From a filamentous cyanobacterium Phorm 6 (lineage in GTDB: Bacteria; Cyanobacteriota; Cyanobacteriia; Cyanobacteriales; Microcoleaceae), in assembly GCA_003003725.1 (NCBI GenBank), contig PVWI01000035.1:1-32529 (forward strand): DNA of 32,529 nucleotides, written 5' to 3'. Below the pieces are notes generated by a model. It was not told the origin of the DNA, did not search any database, and saw only the letters and a program-made list of their open reading frames with translations. How positions within the stretch are numbered: position 1 is the stretch's first letter; every line of letters starts with the position of its first letter. Made by a program: the position numbers and the translations under genes. This document shows positions 7,559-26,744 of this stretch, one piece after another.

Positions 7559-8218
7559 ATGAAATTTGGAATTTTAACAACAACAGCGCTACTAATTGCA
7601 ATGGGTTTTGCTTCTGGAGTCAAAGCAGAAAACGTATCGCAAGTCAAGCAACTATTAGAAACTAAAGAATGTAGCAAATGTGACTTGACAGGAGCGCAAC
7701 TTGCTGGTGCTGATCTCAGCGGAGCCGACTTGAGCGGAGCGAATTTGAGCGGAGCGAATTTGAACGGTGCTAATCTCAATGAAGCAAAACTGAACGAAGC
7801 CAATCTGCAACAAGCTAAATTGCAAGGTGCGAGTTTAATTGCGGCTAGAATGCACGGAGTAAATTTGCAGGGTGCTGATTTAACCAGGGCTAACCTGAGT
7901 CTGGCGGGTTTAGTAATTGCCAGCTTGAAAAATACCAACCTCACCAACGCTAATTTAGTGGGCGCTAACTTAGAAAGTGCCAATTTGGCTGGCGCAAATA
8001 TGAAAAATGCTCGCCAGTCCATAGCGAATTTAGCTAATGTCAGCCTCAGAGGCGGCAGTTTGTCGGGAATCGACGTACTGGGAGTTAACTTGCGGGATGC
8101 AAATTTGACCGGTGCCAATTTGACTGGTGCAAATCTGAACGGTTCGGACTTGACTGGTGCTAATTTAAAAGATGCCAATATGGCAAATGTAGATTTGAAA
8201 AATGCTGCTTTGCCGTAG
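7559..8218 (+). CDS. exported pentapeptide-repeat protein
   Basis: The 219-residue protein has a cleavable signal peptide (MKFGILTTTALL to GVKA, about 23 residues). A short helical segment with a CSKC pair follows, then about 30 pentapeptide repeats of the A(D/N)LxX type from about residue 43 to the end. Such repeats form a right-handed quadrilateral beta-helix. The signal peptide places it in the periplasm or thylakoid lumen, as for other lumenal cyanobacterial pentapeptide proteins. A GAGG a few bases before the ATG supports the start. Repeats are less regular at about 105-165, where the solenoid may be interrupted. Function is unknown. Confidence 0.9.
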   Translation: MKFGILTTTALLIAMGFASGVKAENVSQVKQLLETKECSKCDLTGAQLAGADLSGADLSGANLSGANLNGANLNEAKLNEANLQQAKLQGASLIAARMHGVNLQGADLTRANLSLAGLVIASLKNTNLTNANLVGANLESANLAGANMKNARQSIANLANVSLRGGSLSGIDVLGVNLRDANLTGANLTGANLNGSDLTGANLKDANMANVDLKNAALP

Positions 8219-12459: not shown

Positions 12460-12583
12460 TTGATGAAAGTACATTATGCGGGAAAATTACAGTTTCCCCG
12501 CCTAGATTTATTTAGCAAAGTAAGGTTGGTGATCTTCTCACGTCACTATCTAAAAATGGTGACTGTTAGAGCGAAACTTACAG
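12460..12583 (+). promoter_or_regulatory. probable CRISPR leader
   Basis: This 124-bp stretch lies between the membrane-protein stop and the first repeat. It is placed at the leader end because the degenerate repeat is at the other end. It contains an imperfect hairpin (GCGGGAAA...TTTCCCCGC, 12479-12501). The promoter could not be pinned down. Confidence 0.5.
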
Positions 12584-12844
12584 GTGGCAATCAACCTAAA
12601 TCCCTATCAGGGATTGAAACAGATTTAAGGATCTCTAACTCTTGTTTTGCGTCTTCAAGTTGCAATCAACCTAAATCCCTATCAGGGATTGAAACTTTTT
12701 GTGGGTGCTGGGGCGGTTGGGGCAGAGGGCCGGGTTGCAATCAACCTAAATCCCTATCAGGGATTGAAACACTTCCATAGACCGGAGCCAGCCAACAACT
12801 CGGAAAAGCCGCAATCAAACTAAACCCCTATTAGGGATGGAAAC
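12584..12844 (+). CRISPR. CRISPR array, four 37-nt repeats and three spacers
   Basis: Repeats are at 12584-12620, 12659-12695, 12734-12770 and 12808-12844. Copies 2 and 3 are identical, copy 1 differs at its third base, and copy 4 has six changes. Spacers are 38, 38 and 37 nt. The repeat has a short stem (TCCCT/AGGGA) and ends ATTGAAAC, the usual 8-nt 5' handle of crRNAs, so transcription on the plus strand is inferred, with the degenerate copy as the old distal end. The repeat resembles those of cyanobacterial type I-D or III-B systems. No cas gene is present in the window, so the array depends on Cas proteins from elsewhere or is a relic. Confidence 0.97.
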
Positions 12845-21581: not shown

Positions 21582-21952
21582 GATGCTGCGTAGTTCGATC
21601 GTTCCTTACACGAATGCACGATGCTCAAAAACACGCTAAATGGTTTGTGAATCGGGAGTTTGATGTTCTGGTGGGGCGTCAAGAATTGGCTTTTGTGCCT
21701 GTTCGACAAAACTAAAGATCCAATACGTCTGTTTCTGTGCAGGTACGCAAGCCTGTCCAGAACAGGCAGCTAATGATCCAAAACTTGCTTGACAGATATT
21801 GACTAATATTATTTAATACTGTAAAATTCTGAACTAAGGGTCGTTAAAAATTTAATAATTAAATACGGCAAGGGATCTCCTGTGAGTTCGATCGAGTTTA
21901 ACAGGAGAGAACGTAAAAATCTTTGATCGATCAAAACTATATAGGCTACCCA
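21582..21952. other. intergenic 371 bp
   Basis: A short hairpin GCCTGT/ACAGGC (about 21751-21767) may end the dehydrogenase transcript, though no T-run follows. A GGAGAG at 21903-21908 precedes a TTG (21923) and ATG (21953), both in frame for the COP23 gene. No other gene is supported. Confidence 0.4.
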
Positions 21953-22519
21953 ATGAGACAACCTTTATTTGGTACGATCGCCGCCGGTGCGATCGTCATA
22001 GGTACATCGGCTGTTTTCTCCTCCTCGGCAGTCGCTCAAACCAGAAATCAATTCTACTGCGGGATTAGCGAAGGCAAACCCGCAACCATAGTTCGCACAG
22101 CGGCGAGAGGGAACATACCCTTGATAGTCTGGAACAACGAAGCTTTTTCAGTTTCCGGCTTCCCTCCCAAAAAGCGCTGCGAGGAGGTATCTGCTAGATT
22201 TCAACGGTTCAACGACAACGGACAGCTCAATTTCATGAGAGCAGGGACGTTCAACGGGCAAAAAGTATTGTGTGTCGATCGAGCCAAAGGCAGTGGCAAT
22301 TGTTCCAGTGCTGGATCAGTAGTGCTGACATTACCCCAGCGCAGCAATGCCAACCAGATTCTCGAACAAATGCTCGATACCCGGAACCGTGCTTCCAAGC
22401 AACCCCTGTATTTGAGTGGAGAAAAGCAGTTGGTAACATACGAAAATGGCGATACTAACGTCAATCTAAATGTGTTGCTCAACAACGAACCCGCCGCAGA
22501 CAACCAGCCTTTGTGGTAA
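21953..22519 (+). CDS. COP23 domain exported protein
   Basis: The protein of about 188 residues starts with a signal peptide (MRQPLFGTIAAGAIV to SSAVA, cut before Q). The mature part matches COP23, the circadian oscillating 23-kDa protein family of cyanobacteria: NQFYCGISEGKPATIVRT, IPLIVWNNE, KRCEEVSARFQRF and VLCVDR. Four Cys in the mature domain could form two disulfides. The ATG at 21953 gives a normal signal peptide; the TTG at 21923 has a better ribosome site but adds ten polar residues, so the true start is open. It is followed after 31 nt by a protease gene and lies in a run of three exported proteins. Confidence 0.85.
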   Translation: MRQPLFGTIAAGAIVIGTSAVFSSSAVAQTRNQFYCGISEGKPATIVRTAARGNIPLIVWNNEAFSVSGFPPKKRCEEVSARFQRFNDNGQLNFMRAGTFNGQKVLCVDRAKGSGNCSSAGSVVLTLPQRSNANQILEQMLDTRNRASKQPLYLSGEKQLVTYENGDTNVNLNVLLNNEPAADNQPLW

Positions 22520-22550: not shown

Positions 22551-23333
22551 ATGGATTGGCGTTCACTGATTATGGCAACTTGTATCGGCGGCATCTCAAT
22601 GATGCTGCCGGCACAACTCCCGCCTGACAAAAATTCCTTAAAACAACTACCCATCGAAATATCGCAACAGAAATTGCAGCAGCAAGCTGAGTCAATAGCT
22701 GTGAGGATTCGCTCGTCGGGACAAGTTGCAGGAACAGGAATCGCCATTCGCAAGCAAGGTTTGGAGTACACCGTACTGACAAATGAACACGTCCTCAAAT
22801 CCGGGAAAGCCCCCTACCAAATCCAAACCCCAGATCATAAAATTTATCAGGCAACAGAAGTTAAAGATGCTAATTTTAAAGGCAATGATTTAGCCTTGTT
22901 GCGCTTTACTAGCAGCGCTGAATACACGACAGCTAAGCTGGGTGCTGTGCCAAAAGTTGAAGATCAAGTATTTGCAGGTGGCTTTCCTTTTTCGGAAGAA
23001 GGTTCAAAAGACCGAGGATTTGTTTTCAAAACCGGCAAAGTTTGGCTGGTGCTAGAGAAAGCTTTGGAAGGCGGCTATCAAATTGGTTATACCAACGATA
23101 TTGAAAAAGGAATGAGCGGTGGGCCGCTGCTGAACGCTCGCGGCGAGGTGGTGGGTGTTAACGGCATCCACGCTTACCCGCTGTGGGGAGACCCTTATCA
23201 GTACAAAGATGGTAGTGAACCGAATGCAGCGCTGCGAGAGCAGATGAGTAAGTACAGTTGGGGTATTCCGATCGACACTTTCAAGCAGCTAGCGCCTCCA
23301 GCTTCTGAGATGACAAATTCTCTGAAGAAATAG
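22551..23333 (+). CDS. exported trypsin-like serine protease
   Basis: The 260 residues have a short hydrophobic N-terminus (about 5-21, LIMATCIGGISMMLPAQ), likely a signal peptide, then one chymotrypsin-fold domain. The triad is His80 (LTNEHVL), Asp113 (GNDLALLRF) and Ser189 (KGMSGGPLL). There is no PDZ domain, so this is not a standard HtrA/Deg protein. It is 31 nt after the COP23 gene and 108 nt before a second protease with the same architecture of triad motifs, suggesting duplication or joint function in the periplasm or outside the cell. Substrate unknown. Confidence 0.87.
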   Translation: MDWRSLIMATCIGGISMMLPAQLPPDKNSLKQLPIEISQQKLQQQAESIAVRIRSSGQVAGTGIAIRKQGLEYTVLTNEHVLKSGKAPYQIQTPDHKIYQATEVKDANFKGNDLALLRFTSSAEYTTAKLGAVPKVEDQVFAGGFPFSEEGSKDRGFVFKTGKVWLVLEKALEGGYQIGYTNDIEKGMSGGPLLNARGEVVGVNGIHAYPLWGDPYQYKDGSEPNAALREQMSKYSWGIPIDTFKQLAPPASEMTNSLKK

Positions 23334-23441: not shown

Positions 23442-25127
23442 ATGACAAACTTTTATAGCAGAATTCCAGCCGTACTGATCGGGACGATCGCGATCGGCTC
23501 ATTTCAAATACTGGCAGCAACCGCCCTAGAACCAACACAAATCAGTGAAATTGCCCAAAAAATTACAGTGGTGATTGATGGCGACTGCAAAGGCTCGGGA
23601 GTAATCATTGAGCGTGAAGGCGAAAATTACACCGTCCTCACCGCCAACCACGTCGTAGCAAAGACGACTGGCCAATGCTTCATCAAAACCCCTGACGGTA
23701 TGAGCTACAAACTCTACGAAGCCCGCCTCGTTCCTCGAACCGATTTAGCCGTGTTGCAGTTCCAGAGCAAACAAAACTATGCCGTTGCGCAAGCCGGGAG
23801 TTCTGTGAACTTACGGCCAGGAGCAACAATTTATTTCGCAGGCTATCCCAGTCCAGGACAGGTTGACACCAAACGCAGCTACCGCTTTGAAGAAGTTCGC
23901 GTTACTAGCCGAGTGCAAGGTGCGAATGAAGGTTACGAACTATCGTACAGTGGCAACGCTCTCCCCGGTATGAGTGGCGGGCCGGTGCTCGACGGCACTG
24001 GTCGCTTGGTGGGAATTCACGGCAGAGCTGAGGTGCGGGAAATTCAAGGCGCTGTGGGCAATTACGGCGTTCCGTTTGAAATATTTTTGGCAAAAGAGAG
24101 CCAAAGGACTCGCGAGGAGCGATCGACCTCAGCCCAAAGACCGCCCGTGGAAATAGAACCGCCAGCCCCCGCACCAGCCCCGGTAGAAGCTCCAGCCCCA
24201 ACTCCAGCTCGCACACCAGCACCTGCACCAGCAGCTCGCGAACCGGCGGTGGAAGCACCAGCCCCGGTAGAAGCACCAGCCGCGGCTTTCGCTCCACCAG
24301 AACCGGAACCCATTGCAGCTAGGGAAGCGCAATCGCCTGCGGAGTCGGCAATTAGTTCGATGGTTCGCAGTCAGCAAACTTATGTTTCTCGCAACCGCAA
24401 TTTTCTCAATTCTGTGCCGTCGATCGCCAAAACCTTTAGCATTTTATTACCACAGGATTACAACTTTGCCATTCGCACCACGACTAGAGGCGCTTTTCAC
24501 TACGCAATACCGAAGTCTGCGGACATGAAAGCTTATGTGGGAGCGATTTTCTTGGAGGAAAGCAGCAATTTAAATAATCCGCTGACTGTCTCAATTGTCT
24601 GCGAAGCAACGACTGCAATCAACGTTCGCCCTCCCGATCCGACTTACGGCAGAAGCAATTTAGCTTGCGGTGTGGGTACGAATCTCAGAAATGTCAGCAG
24701 TTTGCCGCAGCAAAATCTAGTAGCTAGGCCAGCACCGACTCCCGCAGCCCGGCCAGCACCGACTCCCACGGCAAGAGCAAATCCACCTCAAACCAGAGTA
24801 GCAGCGCCGATCGGTTTTTTGAGTTTGGTGAATGTTTGCAATACTTACGACCTCAGCGGTCAAAATCCCCACCAAGAGCGAGCTTTAGAGTGGTTGCAGG
24901 GCAAAATTCCCGCCCAAACCATGCAAAAATTTGCCGAAGAGTGGCGCACTCAATTGATCGCCAGAGCAGGTAACAGGCCGATTAATTTGGTCGATGTTTG
25001 CAAAGTGTACGATCGGGCAGGCCTCCACCCGCACCAAAATCGAGCATTGGAATGGTTACAGCAGCAAATTCCCAAAGAAACGCTGACAGATTTTGGTAAA
25101 AAGTGGCAAAATCAGCCCGGTTCGTAG
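23442..25127 (+). CDS. exported serine protease fused to a pilin G/H-like domain and a C-terminal duplicated motif
   Basis: The 561 residues begin with a signal peptide (about 1-29, IGTIAIGSFQILAATA). A trypsin-like domain follows (about 35-220) with His70 (LTANHVV), Asp101 (RTDLAVLQF) and Ser178 (PGMSGGPVL). Next come a Pro/Ala/Glu-rich linker (about 232-300) and a region (about 300-415) resembling cyanobacterial type IV pilin-like G/H domains, with MVRSQQTYV, FHYAIP, MKAYVGAIF, VSIVCEA and a closing TYGRSNLACGVG; the pilin hydrophobic helix is absent. A second Pro-rich linker (about 428-455) leads to two copies of a 45-residue motif (NVCNTYD...HQERALEWLQ at about 464-485 and DVCKVYD...HQNRALEWLQ at about 518-540). 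The stop codon is supplied by a dispersed repeat at 25119. Confidence 0.82.
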   Translation: MTNFYSRIPAVLIGTIAIGSFQILAATALEPTQISEIAQKITVVIDGDCKGSGVIIEREGENYTVLTANHVVAKTTGQCFIKTPDGMSYKLYEARLVPRTDLAVLQFQSKQNYAVAQAGSSVNLRPGATIYFAGYPSPGQVDTKRSYRFEEVRVTSRVQGANEGYELSYSGNALPGMSGGPVLDGTGRLVGIHGRAEVREIQGAVGNYGVPFEIFLAKESQRTREERSTSAQRPPVEIEPPAPAPAPVEAPAPTPARTPAPAPAAREPAVEAPAPVEAPAAAFAPPEPEPIAAREAQSPAESAISSMVRSQQTYVSRNRNFLNSVPSIAKTFSILLPQDYNFAIRTTTRGAFHYAIPKSADMKAYVGAIFLEESSNLNNPLTVSIVCEATTAINVRPPDPTYGRSNLACGVGTNLRNVSSLPQQNLVARPAPTPAARPAPTPTARANPPQTRVAAPIGFLSLVNVCNTYDLSGQNPHQERALEWLQGKIPAQTMQKFAEEWRTQLIARAGNRPINLVDVCKVYDRAGLHPHQNRALEWLQQQIPKETLTDFGKKWQNQPGS

Positions 25128-25252
25128 TGAGGACTTTAGTCCTTCTTCACGGTTCGTAGTGAGGACTTTAGTCCTTCTTCACGGTTCGTAGTGAGGACTT
25201 TAGTCCTTCTTCAAAGTCTTAGGAAAGAAGGACTTTAGTCCTCACTACGAAC
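25119..25252. repeat. three direct copies and one inverted copy of a hairpin repeat
   Basis: A 32-nt unit starting GGTTCGTAGTGAGGAC is repeated head to tail at 25119-25150, 25151-25182 and 25183-25214 (last base changed). An inverted partial copy follows at about 25226-25252. It is the same family as 5557-5617. Copy 1 provides GGT TCG TAG, the last two codons and stop of the protease gene. The whole can fold into a large hairpin between two convergent genes and may act as terminator. Confidence 0.9.
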
Positions 25253-25259
25253 AAAAGAA

Positions 25260-26744
25260 TTAATTGATTTCTAAGGAATTCATCATTGCTTCAGCCGTCT
25301 TTATATATTCCGAATACTCAGATTTTTCGGCCGTGTAAGTCAGCACATAAGCTTTATTATTCATCAGCGTCCAAGTTTGCATGATTTGAGTAGCTTTTTG
25401 CCCGTCTTGGGTATCAAAAATTACTGTATGACCTCGATTATTTGCAAAAGTTTTTGAATTTTCTTCGAGAATTTTGACATCATTAAAGTTAGTTTTAATT
25501 GAATTAATAGACGACTGATTGTACTCATCTAGAGACATCGGTTTTGGCAAATCTTCTATACTGACAGTAATTTGTTCTTGAAAAGAATCAGCGCTGTTCT
25601 TTTTCGGGGCGAGGAAGACAACCACGTCGCTAATTAATGTATTTTGCGACTCTTGCTTTTCCCATTTTTCAGGATATTTGATTTTAAACTGATGGGTGGA
25701 ACTTTGATAAGTTAATAACTTGTCAACTCCAGTTTTCGAGAAATTTTGAATTGCGAAGGCGGAAGCTGCGATCGCCCCAGCAACTCCGATCCCGATTAAA
25801 GCTGGCTTCCATCCCAATGTAAATGTAGAAGTTTTCAGAATGGTAGATGTAGATGGTCGATCGACCATTTTAGCCAAACGCTGCAACAAAACTTGCGTAT
25901 CTTTCGGCCGCCCATTCGGGAAATGAGCCATCAAATCATCAACCAAATCTGCTACGGGCTTCGATACTTGAGTCGCCAAAGTACGCCAAATCAATTTACC
26001 CGATCGCGGATCTTCCTGCAAAATTCTCGGTTGTTGAGCCGTCAGCAAATACACAAAAGTCCGCCCCAAAGCAAAAAAATCCGAACGCGGCTCGGCCTTA
26101 CCATTTTTTTGTTCAAGTGGAGTGTAACCCGCCGAAGAAATTCTCGTCACCTCTCCATTCGTTCTCTGAACAGTTTCTGTGAATTCCCGCACCGCCCCAA
26201 AATCAATCAAGGCTAATTTACCGTTCGATCGCCACATGATATTCTGCGGCTTAATATCCCGGTGAAAATAATTTTGATTGTGAACAAGATTCAAAATTTC
26301 TGTTAGTTGCGTCAACCAGTCAATAGCTAGCTGTGAGTCTATAGGTTGATGATTCTGATTTTCCAACCACTGCTGCAAATTCTTACCTTCAATTTTCTCC
26401 ATCACCAAACAGTGCAAAGAGTTGGTAGTATCGTTAGGCTTGAAAGTAAAATAGGCGTCGGGTTCTACTTTCGGGAGTCCCGGATGCTTCAGCCGCTGCA
26501 AAACATGAGCTTCTCTCTGAAACAGTTCCACCCCCAAAGGATCGTTATTAATCAGAACTTTTAAAACTTTCCGAGTCCCGTCTCTATCTGTGACTTCAAA
26601 AGTTTTGCCAAAGCCTCCTTGCCCCAAAACACTAAGTACCCGATAGCGTTCGTCTATTAACAACTTTGAGCCACAGCTTTGGCAGAAGTTGATAGTGTCA
26701 AGATTTTCTGGATGGCGGCAGTTGGGATTAATGCAGTAGCTCAT
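25260..26744 (-). CDS. Ser/Thr protein kinase with N-terminal 4-Cys prefix and C-terminal PsbP-like domain
   Basis: The 494 residues begin with a Cys-rich, probably zinc-binding prefix (YCINPNC and FCQSCG, residues 3-25). A Hanks-type kinase follows (about 34-290): glycine loop LGQGGFGKTF, Lys62, HRDIKPQN (Asp163), DFG (Asp181), and the cyanobacterial activation-segment motif GYTPLEQ. One membrane helix (about 312-331) follows, then an extracytoplasmic domain (about 345-494) that begins YQSSTHQFKIKYPEKWEKQ and resembles PsbP/PsbP-like folds. It should sense a periplasmic or lumenal signal and phosphorylate cytoplasmic targets. All catalytic residues are present. It is convergent with the protease gene. 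Confidence 0.9.
   Translation of the reverse strand: MSYCINPNCRHPENLDTINFCQSCGSKLLIDERYRVLSVLGQGGFGKTFEVTDRDGTRKVLKVLINNDPLGVELFQREAHVLQRLKHPGLPKVEPDAYFTFKPNDTTNSLHCLVMEKIEGKNLQQWLENQNHQPIDSQLAIDWLTQLTEILNLVHNQNYFHRDIKPQNIMWRSNGKLALIDFGAVREFTETVQRTNGEVTRISSAGYTPLEQKNGKAEPRSDFFALGRTFVYLLTAQQPRILQEDPRSGKLIWRTLATQVSKPVADLVDDLMAHFPNGRPKDTQVLLQRLAKMVDRPSTSTILKTSTFTLGWKPALIGIGVAGAIAASAFAIQNFSKTGVDKLLTYQSSTHQFKIKYPEKWEKQESQNTLISDVVVFLAPKKNSADSFQEQITVSIEDLPKPMSLDEYNQSSINSIKTNFNDVKILEENSKTFANNRGHTVIFDTQDGQKATQIMQTWTLMNNKAYVLTYTAEKSEYSEYIKTAEAMMNSLEIN

Follow-up and report, generated by a model that had tools for sequence, protein, structure and literature searches.

The gene under study lies on the plus strand at positions 23442 to 25127 of the window, the 32,529-nucleotide stretch of contig PVWI01000035.1 that we analyzed. 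It is a single open frame that starts with ATG and encodes 561 amino acids. Comparison with orthologs divides the product into a signal peptide, a protease, a linker, a Pilin_GH domain, a second linker, and a duplicated C-terminal module. The signal-peptide-like N terminus (residues 1 to 28; 23442 to 23525) reaches its Kyte-Doolittle hydrophobic maximum of 1.95 at residue 11. By eye, the likely cleavage site is near ATA-LE, and the signal peptide suggests that the protein is exported. Past residue 30 the maximum is 1.16, compared with 1.95 in the signal peptide, and no membrane-helix-like stretch was found there.

A trypsin-like protease domain follows (residues 29 to 218; 23526 to 24095), matched by Pfam Trypsin_2. 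The Pilin_GH head (residues 296 to 413; 24327 to 24680) was placed by Pfam and profile comparison. It is flanked by two Pro/Ala-rich linkers, delimited by ortholog alignment and composition: linker 1 (residues 219 to 295; 24096 to 24326) has 21 Pro and 21 Ala in 77 residues and differs in length among orthologs, and linker 2 (residues 414 to 458; 24681 to 24815) has 10 Pro and 9 Ala in 45 residues. The C terminus consists of two repeat copies found by self-alignment (residues 460 to 504, 24819 to 24953; residues 514 to 558, 24981 to 25115), each predicted to form three helices. The Pfam matches and the self-alignment bear out an earlier note on this DNA, which had called a trypsin-like protease, a pilin G/H-like middle, and a duplicated end.

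Other features of the window were recorded alongside the gene. A 32-base unit stands in three perfect tandem copies at 25118 to 25213; the array begins within the gene's final codons and provides the stop codon, and a near-inverted copy follows at 25225 to 25252. The 28-base core of this unit occurs 104 times in the same genome with at most one mismatch and 0 times in a reversed control. At 12581 to 12844 lies a CRISPR-like array of four 40-base repeats with 74- to 75-base spacing, the last of them degenerate (80%). The window starts (positions 1 to 19) with AGATGTGTATAAGAGACAG, the Tn5/Nextera mosaic end; it is probably sequencing adapter left untrimmed at this end of the contig.

Of the 61 family genomes searched, 12 encode the full three-part protein (the window's own, G034, G036, G020, G016, G030, G015, G031, G021, G006, G008, and G007); in G021 and G007 it was counted from two places that overlap or adjoin and have open frames of the same length. 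G018, outside these 12, has the parts of the protein on two contigs. Seven related records with an ortholog, to judge by their lengths contigs from seven of the 12, include Microcoleus and Oscillatoriales assemblies. Where computable, dN/dS was 0.05 to 0.21 for the protease, Pilin_GH, and C-terminal parts (four comparisons); synonymous sites of the C-terminal part were saturated against L038, a sister-genus copy, and gave no value. The two linkers lay above the domain parts, at 0.19 to 0.55 (four comparisons). These ratios indicate purifying selection on all three domains, and the open frame is a real, conserved gene of a Microcoleus-like cyanobacterium.

Two genes precede it on the same strand. 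A COP23 gene (21923 to 22519; PF14218, E = 5.3e-34) ends 31 bases before a gene for a 260-residue trypsin-like protease (22551 to 23333), which in turn lies 108 bases 5' of our gene. Every one of the 12 genomes that encode the full protein keeps the three in this order and on one strand (the window; G036, G034, G030, G031, G015, G016, and G021 at L022 to L028; G020, G006, G008, and G007 at L031 and L038 to L040), even where the best-segment identity of the 561-residue protein is only 42 to 44%. In G015 and G016 the two protease genes lie about 1.4 kb apart, and at another locus of the own genome (L004) COP23 and a protease are fused in one protein. One report (PMC6315102) describes COP23 as a circadian oscillating membrane protein of 23 kDa whose transcript changes strongly between day and night in UCYN-A. 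Promoter and terminator scans at the locus gave chance-level results and therefore no support for an operon; as we read the locus, the gene is probably co-expressed with COP23 and the 260-residue protease. Downstream, 25260 to 26744 encodes a convergent Ser/Thr kinase with a four-Cys prefix and a C-terminal DcrB/PsbP-like domain. It recurs in the Microcoleus-like relatives with loci long enough to cover this position; the flanks of the sister-genus loci L038 to L040 showed no such gene.

The protease domain matches Trypsin_2 (PF13365) at residues 51 to 192 with E = 1.4e-23 and 84.6 bits against a curated cutoff of 27.6. The complete trypsin triad that had been proposed stands: H70 (23649 to 23651), D101 (23742 to 23744), and S178 (23973 to 23975), which we take to be catalytic from their motif positions, are invariant in 8/8 aligned orthologs. 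All three are likewise kept in the five sequences of the selection comparison, including L038. The pair C49/C79 is kept in close orthologs, and both residues are lost together in L038. The protein is probably an active trypsin-like protease. Neither viral contigs (queried with the 561-residue protein and with L060, a repeat-bearing lysozyme-type protein described below) nor a plasmid collection offered a home for the gene: scans of the former found no relative, and the matches in 15 plasmid records were to the protease part, none spanning 80% of the query, so a viral or plasmid home was rejected.

The middle domain matches Pilin_GH (PF16734) at residues 297 to 409 (E = 3.3e-17, 63.4 bits, curated cutoff 28.9), and a Pilin_GH search of the own genome scored it at 7.9e-18. 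In a wider alignment of heads, C387 and C409 are nearly invariant. Profile-profile comparison of protease-linked heads with the heads of five cyanobacterial proteins bearing a GFTLIEL leader gave a probability of 98.8% (E = 4.5e-17, 114 columns). A profile of 39 heads searched against the PDB found a type IV major pilin as its best match (8.9e-5); two more pilins, scoring 0.08 and 0.11, lay amid antibody and other chains with similar values. A single-sequence PDB search with this part gave no matches. The profile evidence indicates that the head is related to true pilins, and no GFTLIEL-type prepilin motif occurs within the first 60 residues of the protein. Together with the hydropathy profile after residue 30, these results agree with the proposal of a pilin-like region without its membrane helix. 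The earlier note had named a pilin-type beta-sheet in a predicted structure as support for this reading. Our model of the head, from eight close rows, had a pLDDT of 41.5 and a low-confidence pattern of a helix and then strands; it is too weak to serve as evidence, and Foldseek and VIA placed 8tob, a chain of a type IV pilus, and the minor pseudopilins of 5bw0 low among unrelated folds.

At a threshold of 1e-8, the Pilin_GH family was detected in 110 of 145 genomes of the class and in 0 of 14 controls, and helix-less heads are widespread within it. They sit on Ser/Thr kinases (L117, L161), where a membrane-helix-like stretch precedes them; on pentapeptide proteins (L115, L116, L118); and on a CD225 protein (L113). 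They also occur in tandem, with three copies in L120 and four in L169 (627 to 2270). By eye, short Pilin_GH proteins with plain signal-peptide-like starts are found among L141 to L159. A prepilin leader is present in 5 of 82 Pilin_GH frames, a sample that includes some partial frames and comes from loci selected because they were protease-linked, had long frames, or scored best. The own genome has a GFTLIEL pilin and other Pilin_GH proteins; on its contig C70, four Pilin_GH genes (L009, L010, L013, L014) form a cluster, with hydrophobic but noncanonical N termini. The window itself encodes a pentapeptide-repeat protein at 7559 to 8218, recognized by eye and with no Pilin_GH tail by eye; related pentapeptide proteins elsewhere have one. 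With helix-less heads so frequent in cyanobacteria, where membrane kinases, pentapeptide proteins, and further proteases bear them, the absent helix is not special to our protein, which is therefore one combination of a mobile module. The earlier interpretation thus holds in its domain calls, while the missing helix it pointed to proved common and the C-terminal motif was left unexplained there; partner binding by the pilin-like part, which it suggested, is a putative role.

Other proteases are joined to Pilin_GH as well. Eight of the 61 family genomes (G011, G017, G024, G025, G027, G029, G031, G035) encode a longer protein with a protease and Pilin_GH and without the C-terminal module; the one scanned with Pfam (L121) has TPRs between the two domains, and the rest look alike. 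In two genomes of another family, L114 (G135; 907 residues) combines a protease, TPR, two Pilin_GH copies, and the C-terminal module, and L166 (G124; 767 residues) has a protease, TPR, and two Pilin_GH copies. In both, the weaker Pilin_GH copies were detected by our home-made profile only, and the best copy in L114 falls just under the Pfam cutoff (26.5 versus 28.9 bits). Searching 388 class genomes with a profile of protease-linked heads gave fusions in at least five (G000, G016, G006, G135, G124; E up to 1e-12), a lower bound since only the first candidates per genome were scored. The TPR form without the C-terminal module means that wall anchoring, proposed below, would not be general to protease-pilin fusions.

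Trypsin_2 and Pilin_GH are known domains; the C-terminal repeat appears in neither Pfam nor NCBIfam. Pfam gave no match after residue 409, and the NCBIfam rows in the C-terminal 107 residues were at chance level. The two 45-residue copies with conserved Cys, HQ, and RALEWLQ had been described correctly: they align without gaps, about half of the positions are identical, and the alignment scores 141, compared with a mean of 21.9 and a maximum of 49 in 2000 shuffles. Each copy keeps a Cys in the ortholog alignment. A chance repeat is ruled out by these shuffles together with the orthologs and selection. AlphaFold2 predicted two units of three helices (pLDDT 77.5, pTM 0.72, with the five models spanning 77.5 to 45.7). 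With this model, Foldseek gave no match at E up to 0.001 in the PDB or a viral library, and the best VIA hit, the caspase-8 death effector domains (Z = 4.6), is uninformative for helical bundles. A PDB profile search with the repeat returned chance-level rows only (best E = 0.068, Msh2). Neither model nor profile matched a known wall-binding fold.

With the C terminus of the window protein as query, the repeat was matched in 94 of 388 class genomes at 0.001; in the own genome, only our gene matched. In a phylum sample of 98 genomes, seven had a match, all of the same class. We assembled a set of 83 other carrier proteins at 80 loci, which covers only part of the matches in the 94 genomes; it comprises the 30 loci of the class search less L021, L058, and L059 (the 561-residue protein and orthologs) and L070 (the G135 protease fusion), plus hand-picked further places. 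L177 and L203 had no frame over threshold and were dropped. By Pfam, 59 of the 83 carry PG_binding_1, 45 PG_binding_3, 23 Glyco_hydro_25 (GH25), and 16 Peptidase_C39_2 (C39), with one each of Amidase_2, Amidase_3, and Peptidase_M15_3. Home-made profiles placed a wall-type domain in 81 of the 83; the GH25 profile among them matched 43 carriers versus 23 by Pfam, and we therefore used the Pfam counts. Architectures include GH25 with PG_binding_1 and repeats (L060, L069), two PG_binding_1 domains with two pairs of repeats (L079), repeats preceding a C39 peptidase (L073, L171, L184), Amidase_3 with one repeat (L170), and Amidase_2 with PG_binding_1 and a repeat (L208).

The repeat also reaches cyanophages. 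Among 50,697 phage records, tblastn with the L060 repeats found three records from two phages at weak E values of 3e-4 to 6e-4; with the window's own C terminus as query, S-EIVl alone was found, at 0.05. The matches were stronger only with the repeat profile: at the N terminus, 45 residues scored 4e-7 in the S-EIVl protein and 8e-6 in the P60 endolysin (search size set to 50,000). Each has a single N-terminal copy, and the S-EIVl protein also has a glucosaminidase and C39.

Cell-wall proteins make up the great majority of the other carriers, which makes the C-terminal motif the most informative part of the protein; the interest of the gene lies mainly there. We propose that the protein is a wall-tethered periplasmic protease with a pilin head for docking or sensing. 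On the strength of its domains, triad, conservation, gene order, and the partner spectrum of the repeat, we give this whole picture a probability of roughly 55%. The doubled three-helix repeat would hold the protease at the peptidoglycan, as it may for the lysozymes, amidases, and phage endolysins that bear it, and the long Pro/Ala linkers would supply reach. Without a membrane helix, the pilin head would be unable to enter a pilus; it may instead work outside the cytoplasm in docking or sensing and bring a substrate or regulator to the protease. Wall binding is suggested by the partner domains of the repeat, but most of its carriers also have PG_binding_1, which could itself do the binding. 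The docking or sensing role is the weakest step of the proposal. A more specific version, in which the repeat is an uncatalogued wall-targeting domain of cyanobacteria and their phages and anchors a protease whose freed pilin head catches clients, we put forward only tentatively.

Two alternatives concern single parts of this picture. The head could be a regulator of the protease, a sensor or inhibitor, and not a docking domain for substrates or partners. This is a tenable though rather doubtful reading: Pilin_GH sits at the sensor position of membrane Ser/Thr kinases and joins unrelated domains, but a variable 77-residue Pro/Ala linker separates head and protease in our protein, with no sign of direct contact between them. 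The repeat, for its part, could be a protein-protein or oligomerization module of wall-enzyme complexes, with the protease recruited to a wall-remodeling machine. Carriers without PG_binding_1 exist, several of them with a C39 peptidase, the predicted paired helical units would suit protein contacts, and each copy retains a Cys in our protein. In the phage endolysins, however, the single repeat is an additional module next to the catalytic parts, where wall-binding domains usually lie, and phages would need no host complex; we consider this role unlikely.

It is more doubtful still that the head docks on type IV pili and that the task of the enzyme is to trim pilins or clear them at the wall. 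The relation of the head to true pilin heads and the presence of a GFTLIEL pilin and other Pilin_GH proteins in the same genome favor this possibility, against which most sampled Pilin_GH proteins, in an admittedly biased sample, are not pilins, and no pilus gene was recognized by eye among the window's open frames. An assembly or gene-calling artifact fusing separate genes can be set aside, as nothing but the split parts in G018 hints at it; 12 of 61 family genomes keep the protein in one open frame and all three domains are under purifying selection, which refutes it.

To our knowledge, how cyanobacteria keep envelope proteases in place has been little studied. A wall-tethered protease would amount to a wall-fixed proteolytic station, controlled or fed through pilin-type recognition. 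If the repeat binds the wall, it would identify a tag that targets many wall proteins of cyanobacteria, as well as some cyanophage endolysins. If our reading of the head is correct, the pilin head would be a module of general use for recognition outside the cytoplasm, employed on proteases and kinases and not in pili alone.

The earlier note knew of no described family with this architecture, and none turned up here; a literature search, with most subscription journals outside its scope, returned no paper or family for it. The protease domain bears a distant likeness to HtrA/DegP, scoring 47.2 bits to degP_htrA_DO (NCBIfam) against a cutoff of 416.2; NCBIfam gave HtrA-type and other matches only, all far under cutoff. 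HtrA/DegP proteins have a C-terminal PDZ, whereas our protein has none among Pfam matches up to E = 1, and the missing PDZ and low score rule out membership. It shares its catalytic domain with cyanobacterial Trypsin_2 proteases that have TPR, WD40, or COP23 tails. The own-genome paralogs covering most of the domain are 28 to 44% identical to it and carry other tails, none found with Pilin_GH or the repeat: TPRs in L002 (Pfam) and L003 (by eye), WD40-type repeats in L005 (by eye), and COP23 in L004, while in L007 the protease lies behind a CHAT domain. The protein thus appears to belong to a modular protease family with one catalytic domain and exchangeable C-terminal modules.

Compared with the Pilin_GH family (type IV pilin-like G and H), the head passes the curated cutoff and matches true pilin heads. 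Type IV pilins have a prepilin leader and an N-terminal membrane helix, whereas this head lacks both and lies inside a protease. The repeat is common to our protein, cyanobacterial GH25 lysozymes, PG_binding_1 proteins, and the P60 and S-EIVl endolysins. The catalytic parts of those proteins are wall hydrolases or are absent, whereas here the repeat accompanies a trypsin-like protease.
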